A stretch of DNA of 8,179 nt, taken from positions 4,979 through 13,157 of the forward strand of contig JAJOLG010000024.1 in assembly GCA_021129445.1 (NCBI GenBank). Reading direction: 5' to 3'. Below, piece by piece: positions 1-8,179 of the stretch (the stretch's first letter is position 1; every line of letters starts with the position of its first letter). The notes beneath the pieces were generated by a model, which saw only the letters and a list, made by a program, of their open reading frames with translations, was not told the DNA's origin and ran no database searches. The stretch comes from Candidatus Altimarinota bacterium. GTDB taxonomy: Bacteria > Patescibacteriota > Gracilibacteria > GCA-2401425 > JAJOLG01. The position numbers and the translations under genes are program-made.

Positions 1-186
1 AAATATAATTTAATCATTGAAATAGATTGACCTCATCATGAAGAGTGAAAAAGAAAGTGGAATGATAAAATTAGAGATGAATATTTTTTACAAAAATGAT
101 TTCAAACTGTCAGACTGAAAGACAAAAAAGATATAAATAAAGCTGTTGATACAATAGATCAGTATATTTATAATAATAAAAATTAA
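1..186 (+). CDS. DUF559/Vsr-like endonuclease-domain protein, C-terminal part
   Basis: The gene is cut by the window edge, so only the last 61 residues are visible, ending at TAA 184-186. With TGA read as Gly the frame gives an IEIDG-PHHE segment, then K-x-x-W-N-D-K-I-R-D-E-Y-F-L-Q-K-G-F-Q-T-V-R-L, and a short helical end. That pattern (acidic residue in a strand, Asp-Gly, His, then D..R..YL...G..V.R) is the C-terminal half of the DUF559 family. This family is related to very-short-patch-repair (Vsr) and restriction-type nucleases of the PD-(D/E)XK fold. The Gly of IEIDG, the Gly of the QKGF turn and the Gly after EE are all TGA codons. Substrate and biological role cannot be read from this fragment. 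Such proteins are often small stand-alone ORFs of about 110-130 residues, so roughly half may be missing. Family assignment is by motif recognition only. Confidence 0.72.
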
Positions 187-191
187 ACAAT

Positions 192-219
192 TTGACAAAA
201 ATTTTTTCAAAATTATTTT
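192..219 (+). promoter_or_regulatory. candidate sigma70-like promoter for the PBP gene
   Basis: A perfect TTGACA lies at 192-197, followed after 16 bases by TATTTT (214-219), a 4 of 6 match to the -10 consensus. It is in the spacer upstream of the penicillin-binding protein and would start transcription only some 15 bases before the GTG at 242. The spacer is almost pure A/T, so the -10 match is weak evidence, and the site overlaps the hairpin at 201-230. Confidence 0.25.
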
Positions 220-230
220 TTTGAAAAAAT
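201..230 (+). terminator. AT-rich perfect hairpin, possible terminator of the DUF559 gene
   Basis: Positions 201-212 (attttttcaaaa) and 219-230 (ttttgaaaaaat) are a perfect 12-bp inverted repeat with a 6-base loop, 15 bases after the DUF559 stop codon. The stem has only one C-G pair and is followed by A-rich sequence before a short T run (237-241), so it is a poor classical intrinsic terminator on the plus strand. The symmetric A and T tracts would allow some function on either strand. It may end the DUF559 transcript or simply reflect base composition. Confidence 0.35.
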
Positions 231-241
231 AAAAAATTTTT

Positions 242-2812
242 GTGATTAGAAGACAAAAAAATTTAAATAAATTTCGTGTAAGTTGAAAAATTTCTGAATT
301 ATGAGGAAATTTTTTTGGTAGGAAGAAAAAAAGATGAATAGTTTACCAAGTTTGACATATTTCTGCGAATCCGCATTTGAGGATAAAATTTTTGTTATTT
401 TTTATTTTAATAATTTTTTGAGCAATTATTTCAAGATTGTTTTTTTTACAGGTTATAAAATGAGATTATTATTCAGAACTTGCTTTTGAACAGCAGTATT
501 CAAGGATTGAGATTCCAGCAAGAAGGTGAGAAATTTTTGCAAGGAATTCAAAAACTGGTGAAAAACAAAAACTTGCAACAAATATTTCGCTTGATTTGGC
601 ATATGTTGATCCAAATTATATTCGCAATAAAGAGCAATTAGCAAAAGATTTAGCTGAAATTTTATTTACGGAAGAGGATTACAAAAATTGTAAAAATAAT
701 ATTCACGCTTGTCCAAGGTGATCGACTGTAAAATTTGATGATAAAATTACAATTCAGCCAAAACCAATTTTGACAAAAACTTGATGAATTGCAGAAAAAA
801 TTGAAGATACTCGTTCAATGGAGGAGTTGAAAAGAGATTATGCAGATGATATTTTGAGAAAAATTTCTAAAAAATATATTGATTATTTACCTTTAAAATA
901 TTGAGCAAGTGATGAAGAAGTACAAAAAATTAAGCAATTGTGAATTTCTTGAATTGATGTTTTGAAAAATTGAAACATTATTTATATTAATCCAACTCAA
1001 GTAAATCAAGAAAAAATTTCAATTTATGCAAAAAAATTGCAAAAAATTTTTCCAGAAAAAAAACTTTCTCAGTTGAAAATGTTTTTAACAAAAAGAAAAG
1101 TTCGATATGTTCCTTTAAAAAGAAAATTATCCCCGGAAATTTCTGAAAAAATTCGTGAGTTAAAAAAGAAAAAATATGATGAATGGGTGCAAAATTGAAA
1201 GCCGGAAAAATTTTATGATTACAAGTGAGTTGTGTTGATAAAAGAGCATTGGAGGTATTATCCAGAAAAAGAATTAGCCTCACAGGTTTTGTGATTTGTT
1301 GATAATGAAGGGATTTGAAGGTATTGAATTGAAGAATATTTTAATGAAAAATTATCATGAAAAAATTGAATTATTTTTAATAAAAAAAATGTAAGATGAG
1401 AATTTGTTTTTGTTGATAATAAAAAATTTGCAGAAGTAAAGGATTGAGAATCGATTGTTTTGACGATTGATAAAATTATTCAAAAAAAAGTTGAGGATGA
1501 ATTAAAAAAATGAGTTGAAAAATTTTGAGCAGATAAATGACAAATAATTGTTATGAATCCAAAAAATTGAGAAATTTTAGCAATGGCAAATTATCCAACT
1601 TTTGATCCAAATGATTTTTGAAAAGTTTATAAAATTGAACCAATAAAAAAAGAATGGTGGGTTCCGGAATGAAAAGCTCGGGATTTAAAGCCAAAAGATC
1701 CGGAAAAAGATTGAATAAAAATGTATTACACTTTACCAGTTTTTGTAAAGGATGAAAATTGAAAATTTAAAAGATTTTATCGGAATGATGCAATGAAGGA
1801 AAATGAAGAGATAAAAAAAGCATGGACTCAAAGTTGAATTGTGCTTGAAAGGGTACAAAAATATATGTATAAAAATAAAACAGGTCTTGATGCTTACATA
1901 AATAATACGGTTATGGCAACTTATGAGCCGTGATCGGTATTTAAACCTCTTGTTGTTGCAATGTGATTGAATTCAAAAGAAATTACACCAAATACGACAT
2001 ATGAAGAGTTCTGACCTATTGAAATTGATACTTGAACTGATAGAAAACAATATATTCGTACCGCAGAATGAATTTATCGTTGAATTCAAACAATTACAAA
2101 TGCAATGGAGCATTCTTCAAATATTTGAATGGCTTTTGTTGCGAGAAAATTGTGAGCACAATTGTTTTATTATTATTTAAAAAAATTTAATTTTTGAGAA
2201 AAATATTGAATTGAGCAAAACTGAGAAAGAGCCGGGAGATTGCAATTTTGGAAAAGATGGAATGAAGCAAAATTACTTACAATTTCTTTTTGACAATGAA
2301 TTTCAGTTACACCTCTTCAAATTGTTGCTGCATGGTCAGCAATGATAAATTGATGATATTTATTGAAACCAACCTTAGTGAAAGAAATTTTAGATTTTAA
2401 TTGAAAATTGATTTACGAGCATAAAAAAGATATTATTGATAGAGTTATAAAGCCTGAATCTAGTGCAAAATCAATTTGAATTTTAGTTTCTTCTGTTGAA
2501 AATTGAGTTGCAAAGCCGTGATGAGTAAAATGATACAAAGTTTGATGAAAAACATGAACGGCTCAAATGTCTTGTTCTGATAAACATAGATGTCAAATTT
2601 GAACCTATGAAGAAAAAAAAGAGTGAAATTTTATCACATCTTATGCCTGATTTTGACCAGCAGAAAATCCAAAATTTTTGATTTTGGTAAAATATGATAG
2701 ACCAAGGGTTTGAGTTTACACTTATTGATCAAACACAGCTGCTTTGACTTTTCACGAGATTGCAAAATTTTTATTTGATTATTATGGGATTAAAAAAAGT
2801 GAAGAAAAATAA
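242..2812 (+). CDS. class B penicillin-binding protein (FtsI/PBP2-type transpeptidase)
   Basis: Peptidoglycan D,D-transpeptidase that cross-links stem peptides outside the membrane and probably works with a SEDS glycosyltransferase in division or elongation. Residue numbers assume GTG 242. A basic cytoplasmic tail is followed by one membrane span at about 49-71 and then the pedestal/dimerisation motif (ARRGEIFAR, about 93-101). A YPEKELASQVLGFV segment and a G-R-Y-G-I-E-E-Y segment, typical of class B PBPs, come next. The transpeptidase has all three motifs: S565-V-F-K (after YEPG), S625-S-N, and K770-T-G. The Gly before Ser565 and the Gly of KTG are TGA codons. At 856 residues it is longer than the usual 550-700, partly through an insertion between DPNDF (455) and Ser565. 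A Cys pair (778, 784) follows KTG. The start is uncertain: no in-frame ATG precedes the membrane span, the frame opens after TAA 230-232, and TTG 377 is the main alternative. FtsI versus PBP2 cannot be decided, so no symbol is given. gatB follows 64 bases downstream on the same strand. Confidence 0.93.
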
Positions 2813-2876
2813 AAAAATTTTTGATAAGTTAGAAAAAATTTTTTAGGATGTGGAAAAATATTTAAAAAAATAAATT

Positions 2877-4319
2877 ATGGCACAAAAATATGAATTAGTA
2901 GTTGGTTTAGAGGTTCATGCGAGAATTAAAACAAAATCAAAATTATGGTGCTCTTGTGATGCTTATTGATTTTGAAAAAATCCAAATGAAAATACTTGTG
3001 AAGTTTGTATGTGATTTCCATGAGCTTTACCTGTTTTAAATGAAGATGCTGTTAATTTAGCATTAAAAACATGAAAAGCATTAAATTGTGATATTCCAAA
3101 TTTTTCAAAATTTGATAGAAAATCATATTTTTATCCAGATTTACCAACTTGATTTCAAACAACTCAATTTGACGAACCTGTTTGTAAAAAAGGGTTTTTG
3201 GAGGTTTATGTTGAAAATAGGGAGTGAAAAAAAGAAAAGAAAAAATTTTGAATCGATAGAATTCATATTGAAAATGATGCATGAAAACTTTCTCATACTT
3301 CAAATTGAACAGAAGTTGATTTAAATCGTGCATGATGCCCTTTAATGGAAATTGTGACAGAGCCAGATTTTAGGTCAATTGCTGATGTTAAAGCATTTTT
3401 ACAAGAAATGCAAAAAGTTTTGAGAGCGGCTTGATCGTCAGATGCAGATATGGAAAAAGGGCAACTGAGAGCTGATGTTAATATTTCTCTTCGTCCATTT
3501 TGACAAAAAGAATTTTGAATTAGGGCGGAATTGAAAAATATGAATTCATTTTCTGAAATTGAAAAAGCATTAAAATATGAATATAAAAGACAAGCGATTT
3601 TGCTTGATTCTTGAAAAGAAGTTGTGCAGGAAACAAGATGATGGGATGCTGTAAAATGAGAATCTACTGGGCAAAGGTGAAAATGATGAGCTGCGGATTA
3701 CAGATATTTTCCAGAACCAGATTTGCCAACAATTTTGCTTTCTGATGAAAAAATTGCTTCTGTTAAAAAATGTGATTTGCCAACTGAAAAATATGAAAAA
3801 TATCAATCTGAGTTTTGAATTAAAGAAATTGATGCTTTTATTTTATCTTCAGATGTTGAATTGTCGCAATTTTTTGAAGAAACTGCAAAAATTTCATGAG
3901 ATTCAAAAAAATCTGCATCATGGATTTTATCAGAATTTATCAAGTTTTTAAAAGAAGATTTAATAAAAATTTCAGAATCAAAAGTAAAACCTGAACATAT
4001 TTGAAATTTGATAAAATTTATAAATAACTGAGAAATTTCTTGAAAAATTGGGAAAGAGGTTTTTGAGGAAGTTTATAAAACTTGAAAAAATCCTGAGGAT
4101 ATTATTGAGGAAAAATGATTAAAACAAAATTCAAACGAGGACGAATTGAGAGAAATTTGTCAAAAAATTTTAGATGATAATTCAGATTTAGTTGAAAAAT
4201 ATCATTGATGAAGAGATAATTTGTTTTGAAGTTTTGTTGGGCAGACGATGAAGGCTACTCAGTGAAAGGCGAATCCTGGGATTGTGAATAAGATTTTGAA
4301 GGAGTTATTATCTAAATAA
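2877..4319 (+). CDS. gatB: Asp-tRNA(Asn)/Glu-tRNA(Gln) amidotransferase subunit B
   Basis: GatB is the kinase/amidotransferase subunit of GatCAB. It activates the misacylated Glu-tRNA(Gln) or Asp-tRNA(Asn) and accepts ammonia delivered from GatA to make Gln-tRNA or Asn-tRNA. The 480-residue product has normal family length. It opens with MAQKYELVVGLEVHARIKTK. A Cys quartet follows (C25, C27, C41, C44), matching the family's zinc site. Other family signatures are YFYPDLPTGFQTTQF, RIHIENDAGK, LMEIVTEPD, MEKGQLRADVN (from residue 192), AELKNMNSF, ETRGWD and DYRYFPEPDLP (from residue 274). The C-terminal YqeY-like tail ends in GQTMKATQGKANPG (from residue 455), which binds the tRNA elbow in known structures. 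More than 30 glycines are TGA, including those of CMGFPGALP and NDAGK. ATG 2877 is the only sensible start, although no strong Shine-Dalgarno is visible. gatA and gatC are not in the window, so the subunits are encoded apart or further away. It could share a transcript with the PBP gene. Confidence 0.97.
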
Positions 4320-4323
4320 AAAA

Positions 4324-4419
4324 ATGCAAATAATTGATATTTCAGATTATGAAAAAAAGGTTTTAGATTTAAAAAAACAAATCGACAATTTTAAACCTTT
4401 TTCTTCAAAACAATTATAA
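4324..4419 (+). CDS. 31-residue ORF, possible decayed N-terminus of a Fic-family protein
   Basis: A short ORF begins four bases after the gatB stop codon and ends at TAA 4417. Its product (MQIIDISDYEKKVLDLKKQI, then DNFKPFSSKQL) is a helical, charged segment. It resembles the extreme N-terminus of Fic/DOC proteins, where a helix followed by a K-P-x-S-x-x-x-L turn precedes the S-N-x-I-E-G-N inhibitory helix. Reading on through the TAA at 4417 and a second at 4438 gives NFKKFL, then IFFISNEGKLQG, then a stop at 4492. That is reminiscent of the SN-IEGN-KL region, and it suggests the remnant of a gene whose AMP-transferase core (HPFxxGNGR) is gone. Similarity is weak and short. A real small protein, or a chance ORF in AT-rich DNA, is also possible. 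Confidence 0.35.
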   Translation: MQIIDISDYEKKVLDLKKQIDNFKPFSSKQL

Positions 4420-4502
4420 AACTTTAAAAAATTTTTATAAATATTTTTTATTTCAAATGAATGAAAATTACAAGGATTATTTAAGATTCTTTAAAGGTTA
4501 GT

Positions 4503-5651
4503 TTAATCAAAAATCTCTTCAAGAAACTCTCAAAATTCCATCATTCATTCATCGTTCAATCTCAAAAATTTTTCTCATTTTGAGGAAGATTTTTTTTCAA
4601 TAAATTTTGATTTTAAAATTTTGTTCAAAATTTTATCTCAAAAATTTTTTTCTCAACTTAAAATTTTCTCAATTTCTTCAATTTTTTTCCATCTTGTCAG
4701 ATGAAAAATTTTTTGTAAATCTAAAAAAAATTTTTCCATTCAAACAATTTTTTCTATTTCTTGAAATTTATTTTTATTTCAATTTAATTCGAGATATTTT
4801 TTTAAATTTTTTGTATTCACAAAAACATTTTCTCAATCTGATCAAACCGCAGAAAGTCAGAATCAATAATATTTTTCTCACTCCCAAAAATTTTTATTAT
4901 GCCAATTAAAATTTTTTTCTTCTCAAAAATTTTTTTTTCAATCATTTGATTTTTTACAAAAATTATAAATTTCATACTGAAAAAAATTTTCTTCTTCTAA
5001 AAAATTTTTTATTTGAAAATAAAATTTTTTAACAGTTTCAAAATCAAGTCATTTTTCTTTTTTTCATTCAATTTTGGAATTTTTTTTGTAGTCGAGTGCA
5101 TAATATGAAATGTGTTGAAGTTTGAGTTTTTTGATTATTTCAAGGTCTTTTTGTAAGTCTTTTTCAGTTTGATTCGGTATTCAAAAAATTAAATCTATTG
5201 ATAAATTTGGGAAAAAATTTTTTGCTCTTGTGATGATTTTTTCTGCTTCATAATTTTTTCTCTCAAAAAAATCAAAAAATTTTTCTTGAAAACTTTGAAT
5301 TCAAATTGAAATTTTTGTGATTCAGATTTTTTTCAATTCTTGAAGTTTTTTTTCCGATAAATCTTCTGGATTTGATTCCAAAAGTATTTCAACAAAATTT
5401 TTTTGCTGTGGAAATAATTTTAAAATTTCTCAAATGAAATCTGCATCAATAGCAGAAGGTGTTCATCATCAAAAATAAATCGTTTTGATTTCTTGATTTT
5501 TTTTATCTTCAAAATATTTTTTGATTTCGGTTTTTAAAACTTCAAAATATTTTTTGTGAATTTCATTGTTTCAATTTTGAATAGTTGAAAAATTGCAATA
5601 CGAGCATTTTTGCCTGCAAAATGGAATGTGAATGTAAAAATTTTTTATCAT
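4503..5651 (-). CDS. hemW: HemW/HemN-like radical SAM protein
   Basis: Radical S-adenosylmethionine protein of the coproporphyrinogen-III-oxidase-like family. It has 382 residues, matching HemW (about 370-400) rather than the longer true HemN (about 450). It starts MIKNFYIHIPFCRQKCSYC, giving the [4Fe-4S] cluster motif CxxxCxxC at C12, C16 and C19, followed by Asn-Phe as in HemW. The SAM-binding GGGTP is at 61-65, and all three glycines are TGA (plus positions 5463-5471). Further family marks are ESNPEDLSE, ISIGIQSF (Q119), SIDLIFGIPNQTEKD, HISYYAL, QYEIYNF (225-231) and WHNKNFWEGEKYYGFG. HemW in other bacteria is a heme-binding chaperone. Its role in an organism that probably lacks heme synthesis is unclear, so the symbol reflects family rather than proven function. 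The C-terminus is rich in Lys, Glu and Phe. ATG 5651 is the natural start but directly follows a U-tract (plus 5654-5661) rather than a Shine-Dalgarno. The stop, TAA, converges with the gatB side. Confidence 0.9.
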
Positions 5652-5653
5652 TT

Positions 5654-5692
5654 AAAAAAAACATTAAATTTTTTACAATTTAATGCTTTTTT
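5654..5692 (-). terminator. hairpin with U-tract between the PKD protein gene and hemW
   Basis: Positions 5662-5670 (cattaaatt) and 5677-5685 (aatttaatg) form a perfect 9-bp stem with a 6-base loop. On the minus strand the stem is followed at once by eight T residues (plus A run 5654-5661), the classical intrinsic terminator layout, placed just after the PKD protein stop codon (5708-5710). The plus-strand side also has a T-rich tail (5687-5700), so it could act in both directions. The stem is AT-rich and therefore only moderately stable. The U-tract ends two bases before the hemW ATG, so it also lies in the hemW initiation region. Confidence 0.6.
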
Positions 5693-5707
5693 ATTTTTTT
5701 GGCAATT

Positions 5708-8179
5708 TTATTCTTCAATAATTATTTTTTCGTCAAGTGTTCAATAAATTGTATCGTAGGCGATAATTCTAATCTTAACCAATCATTCTCATTTTTTAAC
5801 AAATGCGGTTGAAGCAATTGAATTTATTGCATTAGTTTCAGGTGAAAGTAATTTTCATTTTCATTTTATGATTTGAAATTCAACTTTTCAATTGTAGATT
5901 GAGGCATCCGAATTTGTAATGTGTGCGATTAATTTGTAATTATTTTCTGGGTATTTTTCAACTCTTACATTTAAAGATGTTAAAGTTATTCATTCTCATC
6001 TTAATTTAATTCATAAATCTGTTGAAATTCTATTTTTTTCGTCAAAAATATTTTTAGTTTTTTTGATTATTGATCAAGTTTTAGTTGTATTTCAATATCA
6101 AGTTTCTCATTCAATTTTTTCATCAATATAAATTGTTTTATAAACTTTTTTAAATACTCAACGATCTTCAATTCTCAATTGAACTTTATATTCTCATGGT
6201 TCTTTGTAAATATGTTCTATCGTTTTCCTGTCAACTGTTGTATCGATTTGGTCATCTCAATCAAAATCCCAAGAATATTTTCATTTAAAATTATCTTTTG
6301 TTTTTACTTTGAAAAATACTTGCTCTCAAACAAAAGCTTGTGTTTTGTTTATTTCAAAATCAATTTTTGGACTTTTAGTTTCTCAATTTTTTACAGAAAT
6401 TCTGTATTTTTCTCATTGTGTTTCAAAAATTGATGTTGTTCATCATTCATTATCTTCAACTTCAACATTAAAAATATAATCATTTGTAAGTCATTTTACT
6501 CAATCTGCCTCAATTAAAAATTCTGTATTTGAGGTAAAAGTTTCTTGATATCATAATTTTTCTTCTGTAAATGGTTTGTAATAATACCATTTATATTTTA
6601 CAATATTTCAATCTTCATCATAAGTATTTTCTAAATTTAATTTAACTTTTAATGGTGTTGTGTATTTTCAATCCTGACTTTTGTCCGCCAAAATTTGTAA
6701 AAATCAGATTTTTGGATTTTTATTTACAACTTTTACCCGAATTGTGTCAGAAATTTTTGCAGCTTTTTTTGTATCAAGATCTTTTACCGAAACTTTTAAT
6801 GGATAACATTCTTTTCTTACAAGTCTGTATTTATGTCTTGCAACTTGTGTTTCTGCAAAATTTCAATCTCAAAAATCCCAAGTGTATGCTAATCATCAAT
6901 GTGTATTATCGATATTTACAGATTCTTTTGCATTTACTTCAATTTGATCAAGCCTTGTTATTTCAATTCAGTCTTTTCATTCTCAACATAAATCTCTTTT
7001 TCACGATATTTTTACTCAATTTACGAATGTTTGAAATACTCAAATTGGATATTCTCAATCTCAAATAAATACTTTTTTAATAATTGAATTTTCTTCTCAG
7101 TTTGCATTTATTGCAGTCATTTTTATTGTATAAATTCAAGATTCTTTAAAAGTATGTGAAATTTTATCAGTTCAAGATGTTGTTTCTTTTTTTCAATCTT
7201 TAAAATCCCATAAAATTGAATTTACATCAACTGGAACTTTTGGTGTGAAAGTTATACTTCATCATTTTTGAGTCGCATATCTGTCAACATCAAAATCTAC
7301 ATTTAAAACAGAATTTACAGAAATTTTTTGATTAAAAATATCGTATTCTCAGTATTGATCTTCAACTTTTAAATATACATTGTAATCTCAAACTTCTTTG
7401 TAGGAATATGTAATTTTAAATTTGTCTCATTTTACAATTTCATATTTTCAATCTCAATCAAAATCCCACGAATATTTTAAAATATCTCAGTCAACATCGT
7501 ATGATCATCATCAATCAAATACAAATACTCATGGTAAAGAAATATTTTTATTTTTAAAGTTAAATATTGCTTTTGGTGTATTTGAATTTACATAAAATTT
7601 ATGTTCTGTAAAATCTTCTTTTCATTGTAAATTTTTTACTGTAAGTTCCGCAGTGTAACTTCATGCATTCTTTGGAGTAAAAGAAAATCATTTTTCTTCT
7701 GATTTGTAAATCAAATTTCATTTTCAATCTTTAATTACCCATTTATATGAAGAAATTTTTCAATCTGAAGACTTTGATTCACTTCAATCAAATGATACTT
7801 TTGCTCAGAGTTTTATATCTGATGGATTTATTTTTATATCAGCTGTTAAATTTTTTATAATTATCCTGATTTGTTTTTCATAAATTTTTCCATTTTCATC
7901 TTTAACAGAAAGTTTTAAAAGATAATTTCAAGCTTTATCATAAAATTGTCTAACTGCTTCTCAGGTTTCAAAAAAGTCTTTATTTCAATCTCAAAATTCC
8001 CAAATATATTCACTGATTGATAATCAATTGGCAATTACTGATTTTGATGGATCGAAAAGTATTCATTTTGATGATGCGGTTAAAACATTTGTCCTGTAAA
8101 CCGATTTTATTTCTTTTCAGTCTATAAAAATTTTTATTTTAGTTTCTAAAAATGTTAAATTTCAGTTTTTATCTAAAAT
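5708..8179 (-). CDS. multi-PKD-domain repeat protein, C-terminal 823 residues
   Basis: The gene runs in from the right edge (start not in window) and ends at TAA 5708-5710. Reading TGA as Gly, it is continuously open for 823 residues. It carries about seven PKD-like Ig-fold repeats of roughly 86-110 residues. Their core Trp residues, counted from the window edge, are W60 (WEFGDG), W147 (YKWVIKDG), W238 (WDFDGDG), W324 (WDFKDG), W434 (WDFGDG), W531 (YKWYYY, degenerate) and W637 (WDFDGDD). Most repeats end with a Y-x-V/L-x-L-x-V-x-D strand such as GDYNVYLKVEDQYGEYD. The last 120 or so residues (after YKTIYIDEKIEGE) form a different beta-rich module, with NGKVEFQIIKGKGKLLSP and a final DTIYGTLDEKIIIEE. 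It resembles bacterial Ig-like (Big/invasin) domains. No C-terminal membrane helix or LPXTG sorting signal is present. PKD domains typically occur in secreted or cell-surface proteins and mediate binding to proteins or polysaccharides. Location and ligand here are inferred, and any catalytic domain or signal peptide would lie upstream outside the window. Confidence 0.88.

Follow-up and report, generated by a model that had tools for sequence, protein, structure and literature searches.

Genes and reading frames of the window

The stretch analyzed here (the window, 8,179 nucleotides) spans positions 4979-13157 of contig C20 (13,157 bases) and forms its right end; the source genome is a draft of 672,893 bases, 94.8% complete. 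The window has a GC content of 25%. Under translation table 11 its longest open reading frame (ORF) reaches 138 aa, whereas under table 25 four long frames occupy the window, two on each strand (Table 1), in line with the initial annotation, which held that the genes open only when TGA is sense. Given the base composition, the chance of TAA- and TAG-free frames of such length is 1e-16 to 1e-31 per gene. All four genes stop at TAA, and together they carry 189 TGA and 15 GGN codons in frame. This TGA share among glycine codons (93%) compares with 94% in a set of 19 genes from other contigs of the genome. The motif coordinates given in the initial annotation for KTG and for the GGG of GGGTP are correct, NDAGK, GFPGALP, and WDFGDG contain TGA as it had described, and its remark that GGN is the minority among gatB glycine codons agrees with our counts.

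Table 1. Genes and glycine-bearing motifs of the window, with in-frame TGA and GGN counts per gene.
Feature	Position	Strand	TGA/GGN	Basis and remarks
Class B penicillin-binding protein (PBP; SpoVD/FtsI-like), 856 aa	242-2812	+	62/7	Pfam Transpeptidase 1.2e-61, PBP_dimer 2.1e-13; start codon uncertain
PBP active-site serine motif PGSVFK, Gly = TGA	1928-1945	+		Codons read directly
PBP KTG motif, AAA ACA TGA	2549-2557	+		Codons read; X-masked alignment to SpoVD 7rcz
gatB, 480 aa	2877-4319	+	31/7	NCBIfam PRK05477 4.2e-181
gatB GFPGALP, TGA for both Gly	3012-3032	+		Codons and alignment; second Gly kept in 78/78 homologs
HemW-like radical SAM protein, 382 aa	4503-5651	-	24/0	TIGR00539 2.7e-58, 197.8 bits, slightly below the 205.4 cut-off; Radical_SAM
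GGG of GGGTP in HemW-like gene, TGA TGA TGA	5463-5471	-		Codons read; X-masked structure alignment
PKD-repeat protein, at least 823 aa, truncated by contig end	5708-8179	-	72/1	PKD_4 5.9e-65

A search of the window against Rfam gave no match. Mis-binning of the window was considered but is not supported: its tetranucleotide composition correlates at 0.87-0.96 with the other contigs of the genome and at 0.41-0.70 with stretches from the recoded families f12 and f15, some of them equal in GC. Positions 1-183 hold the C terminus of an ORF, broken by a gap, with a by-eye resemblance to DUF559/Vsr-like endonucleases (IIEIDGPHHEEGKRKWNDKIRDEYFLQKGFQTVRLKD). In the part of C20 that precedes the window (L356:326-4986), two further genes were named by eye: pheT, with 55 TGA codons, and an Elp3-like radical SAM/acetyltransferase gene, which enters a run of N immediately before the window. 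Elp3-type enzymes modify U34 of tRNAs.

The amino acid encoded by TGA

TGA was masked as an unknown residue (X) before alignment to standard-code homologs. The main comparison covered 20 conserved proteins (4,811 codons), comprising 18 genes on a single contig, most if not all of them for ribosomal proteins, together with rpoC and part of rpoB from a second contig. Glycine is the consensus of the standard-code relatives at 318 of the 414 TGA sites; where at least 80% of these relatives agree, the residue is glycine at 252 sites, alanine at 6, and serine at 3. In gatB, aligned to 78 standard-code homologs, 19 of the 31 TGA sites have a glycine consensus, and 4 are glycine in every homolog. Solved structures likewise place glycine beneath the masked sites of EPxSVFK and KTx in the PBP and of xxxTP in the HemW-like protein. 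The assignment of UGA to glycine in this genome, as first proposed from the window, is thus as well established as sequence data allow.

In-frame UGA in bacteria more commonly means tryptophan (code 4) or selenocysteine, and this general frequency is what can be said for either reading, no result of the present analysis being in their favor. The alignment columns at TGA sites rule both out: tryptophan fills 3 of 5,152 aligned cells in the 20 conserved proteins and none at the gatB TGA sites among the 78 homologs, while UGA, at 7-9% of codons, is far too frequent for selenocysteine. TGG aligns to tryptophan, which therefore retains its own codon. We regard the probability of either meaning as negligible, and the exclusion of code 4 in the initial annotation stands.

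The same usage extends beyond the window. The 19 genes, located on two other contigs, contain 337 TGA and 21 GGN codons and end in TAA (18 genes) or TAG (1 gene), never in TGA. In each of sixteen standard-code relatives the gene set has just 0-2 TGA, mostly at gene ends. Twelve sampled recoded relatives are intermediate, with UGA making up from 8% (G023) to 68% (G033) of glycine codons. AGA is the chief arginine codon of the genome; CGA and CGG are absent from the 4,811 conserved codons, and 4 occur in the window, outside the conserved-site comparison. The standard-code relative G001 shows the opposite preference (CGA 114 versus AGA 22 in 8 genes; L150, L223, and L257). A local feature of gatB was also noted: the near-invariant KEEAHDYR is replaced by KGGAADYR (window 3681-3704), amino acid 270, Glu in 78/78 homologs, being encoded by TGA.

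Phylogenetic position, release factors, and tRNAs

The lineage is represented by one genome, and G001 is its only same-order relative in our sample. In a tree of 20 proteins (27 genomes, 4,629 columns), the genome is the sister of the standard-code G001 (100/100), and the two form a set of five with G012, G015, and G002 (100/99). The recoded families f12 and f15, which we infer to be Absconditabacteria/Gracilibacteria (JAEDAM01), fall together and are separated from the genome by a 100/100 branch. The genome is therefore nested among standard-code lineages, and its sister possesses release factor 2 (RF2). Ribosomal proteins alone and RpoC alone return the same placement (99 SH-aLRT each). Trees of rpoB, the 20 proteins, the ribosomal proteins, RpoC, and a set stripped of glycine columns all keep the genome outside f12 plus f15, and its sisterhood with G001 is firm in every tree but that of rpoB alone (81/20).

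Approximately unbiased (AU) tests on concatenated proteins (LG+G4, fewer than 27 genomes) rejected a single recoded group at p = 0.0018, and at p = 0.0117 after removal of the columns with glycine in a recoded genome; rpoB alone rejected it at p = 0.0121. Since AT bias would pull the genome toward f15 and f12, a composition artifact is expected in the opposite direction. The home in Gracilibacteria (BD1-5)/Absconditabacteria implied by the initial annotation has to be abandoned: an ancestry shared with the recoded lineages (JAEDAM01 by inference) to the exclusion of standard-code ones was not recovered, gatB alone leaning otherwise.

The gatB tree is the chief sequence evidence contrary to an independent origin. 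It groups the window gene with four Gracilibacteria-type sequences (99/95), and some of its neighbors there are nearly devoid of TGA. Forcing gatB together with Peregrinibacteria-type sequences was weakly rejected (p = 0.03), in a test that held only two such rows and in which gatB is a long single-gene branch. The conflict is mild; both horizontal transfer and weak signal are possible causes.

Among 60 genomes, nearly all those outside f12 and f15 have an RF2 match above the cut-off and practically no TGA in RF1. G001 conforms, with RF2 above the cut-off and an RF1 gene without TGA, while members of f12 and f15 have TGA within RF1 and RF2 search matches below the cut-off only. A search of the 94.8% complete draft yielded no match for RF2 (prfB) and likewise none for RF1, although the same search recovers gatB in this genome and, in relatives, RF1 genes that carry as many as 17 TGA. 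No tRNA-Gly(UCA) is among the 26 tRNAs found in the draft, from which Met, Glu, Arg-UCU, Leu-UAA, Ser-GCU, and Thr-UGU, all present in G001, are also missing, Arg-UCU in spite of AGA being the chief arginine codon. The absences of RF2 and of tRNA-Gly(UCA) carry little weight because the draft also lacks RF1 and several obligatory tRNAs. Of the two genome features predicted by the initial annotation, the absence of RF2 fits, with RF1 missing too, whereas the tRNA-Gly(UCA) was not found.

ARAGORN called no tRNA with a UCA anticodon in the genome. A pattern search for such tRNAs gave 17 sites versus 5 in the reversed control, and none of the matches listed is tRNA-like. In a control, the recoded genome G041 (f12) has a UCA tRNA with 5' GCG and U73, the start and discriminator base expected for tRNA-Gly. 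In a second one, the recoded genome G033 (f15, 99% complete), covariance-model and ARAGORN searches gave no UCA tRNA (loci L274-L335); in this genome RF2 is not above the cut-off, 19 genes contain 219 TGA, and one tRNA-like gene bears an intron (L335). The UGA decoder of f15 may be unusual or interrupted.

The tRNA-Gly(UCC) of the genome is 96% identical to that of G001 and 73% identical to that of f15. Two further tRNAs attracted attention. A second, well-formed CCA-anticodon tRNA (L351; G000:C8:1944-2016, + strand) has C1:G72, A73, and G37 and matches no tRNA of three relatives at more than 62% identity; the ordinary tryptophan tRNA sits on C4, not C8. This tRNA was considered as UGA decoder, for which it is a remote candidate; nothing was found in its support. 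A tRNA(CCG) (L352; G000:C5:3026-3099) combines A1:U72 and G73 with an aberrant D-stem, in a layout that resembles one in f15.

Origin of the reassignment and comparison with known codes

UGA is the principal glycine codon genome-wide, with UAA and UAG as stops in all genes examined. The organism comes from a lineage on the standard-code side of its class and very probably acquired the reassignment independently of Gracilibacteria (BD1-5)/Absconditabacteria. We accordingly propose, with good confidence, a second, independent origin of UGA as glycine in bacteria, outside JAEDAM01 and near completion (about 94% of glycine codons). Under strong AT pressure and genome reduction, stops would have shifted to UAA, making UGA rare as a stop. 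RF2 may then have been lost, and a glycine tRNA reading UGA may have emerged by acquiring a UCA anticodon. AT pressure would afterwards have swapped GGN for UGA at nearly all glycines, GGA to UGA being one step. An unusual decoder in place of the known tRNA-Gly(UCA), perhaps a converted tRNA like the CCA-anticodon one on C8, is improbable.

The identical reassignment, the low GC, the common class, and the gatB tree would all suit an ordinary code-25 member of the Gracilibacteria/Absconditabacteria group, with one shared origin and an artifactual tree position. We consider this improbable, as several gene sets on two contigs consistently exclude the genome from that group, against the direction expected of composition bias. 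The shape of the tree alone is also compatible with a reassignment that arose a single time, long ago, at the base of the class and was repeatedly undone in the other lineages, UGA becoming a stop again, and an unrooted count gives two state changes; yet the 20-protein tree would demand at least six separate reversions, one per standard-code branch off the path to the genome, each requiring the regain of RF2 and the purging of UGA from all genes, which makes this history very improbable indeed. Sideways spread is a different matter, since the reassignment would still be separate and only the decoder shared, a UGA-reading tRNA-Gly having been acquired from a phage or from a member of JAEDAM01. 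Both groups belong to one class, and the decoder was not seen among the 26 tRNAs of the draft. We nevertheless hold such a transfer to be unlikely: positive evidence for it is lacking, and the other glycine tRNA, tRNA-Gly(UCC), is vertically inherited.

A second origin, if true, would make UGA-to-glycine a repeatable outcome, no longer a one-off, and its prerequisites (low GC, RF2 loss, and a mutable glycine tRNA) would become comparable between two cases; the standard-code sister genome is on hand for such a comparison. The near-complete switch to UGA supplies an end point for codon-capture models. In practical terms, annotation pipelines that assign code 25 by taxonomy alone will fragment the genes of this genome.

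Code 25 has been described in Absconditabacteria (SR1) and Gracilibacteria (BD1-5) (PMC8629427; PMC4032931). A 2026 review confines UGA-to-glycine to JAEDAM01, with one origin, and, citing Ivanova et al. 2014, places it in the last ancestor common to one group (PMC13293708). Surveying 42,109 genomes, another 2026 study reports it for 53 members of the same class (PMC13092985). We found no report of another origin in the open-access papers searched. The code itself is known, while its separate origin in this genome appears to be new.

With the code 25 of JAEDAM01, the genome shares UGA at conserved glycines, UAA and UAG as stops, and low GC; RF2, too, was not found, but in the present draft neither was RF1. 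It differs in lying outside that group, adjoining a standard-code sister, and in the extent of the switch (in the 19-gene set, UGA accounts for 94% of glycine codons here and for 8-68% in the twelve sampled recoded relatives). Absconditabacteria have also reassigned CGA and CGG to tryptophan (PMC8629427); here, too, CGN is rare and a tRNA(CCG) is present, with neither CGA nor CGG in the conserved codons. Mycoplasma and certain insect symbionts read UGA as tryptophan (code 4). These share with our genome the loss of UGA as a stop in a small AT-rich genome, but the amino acid gained is tryptophan there and glycine here.
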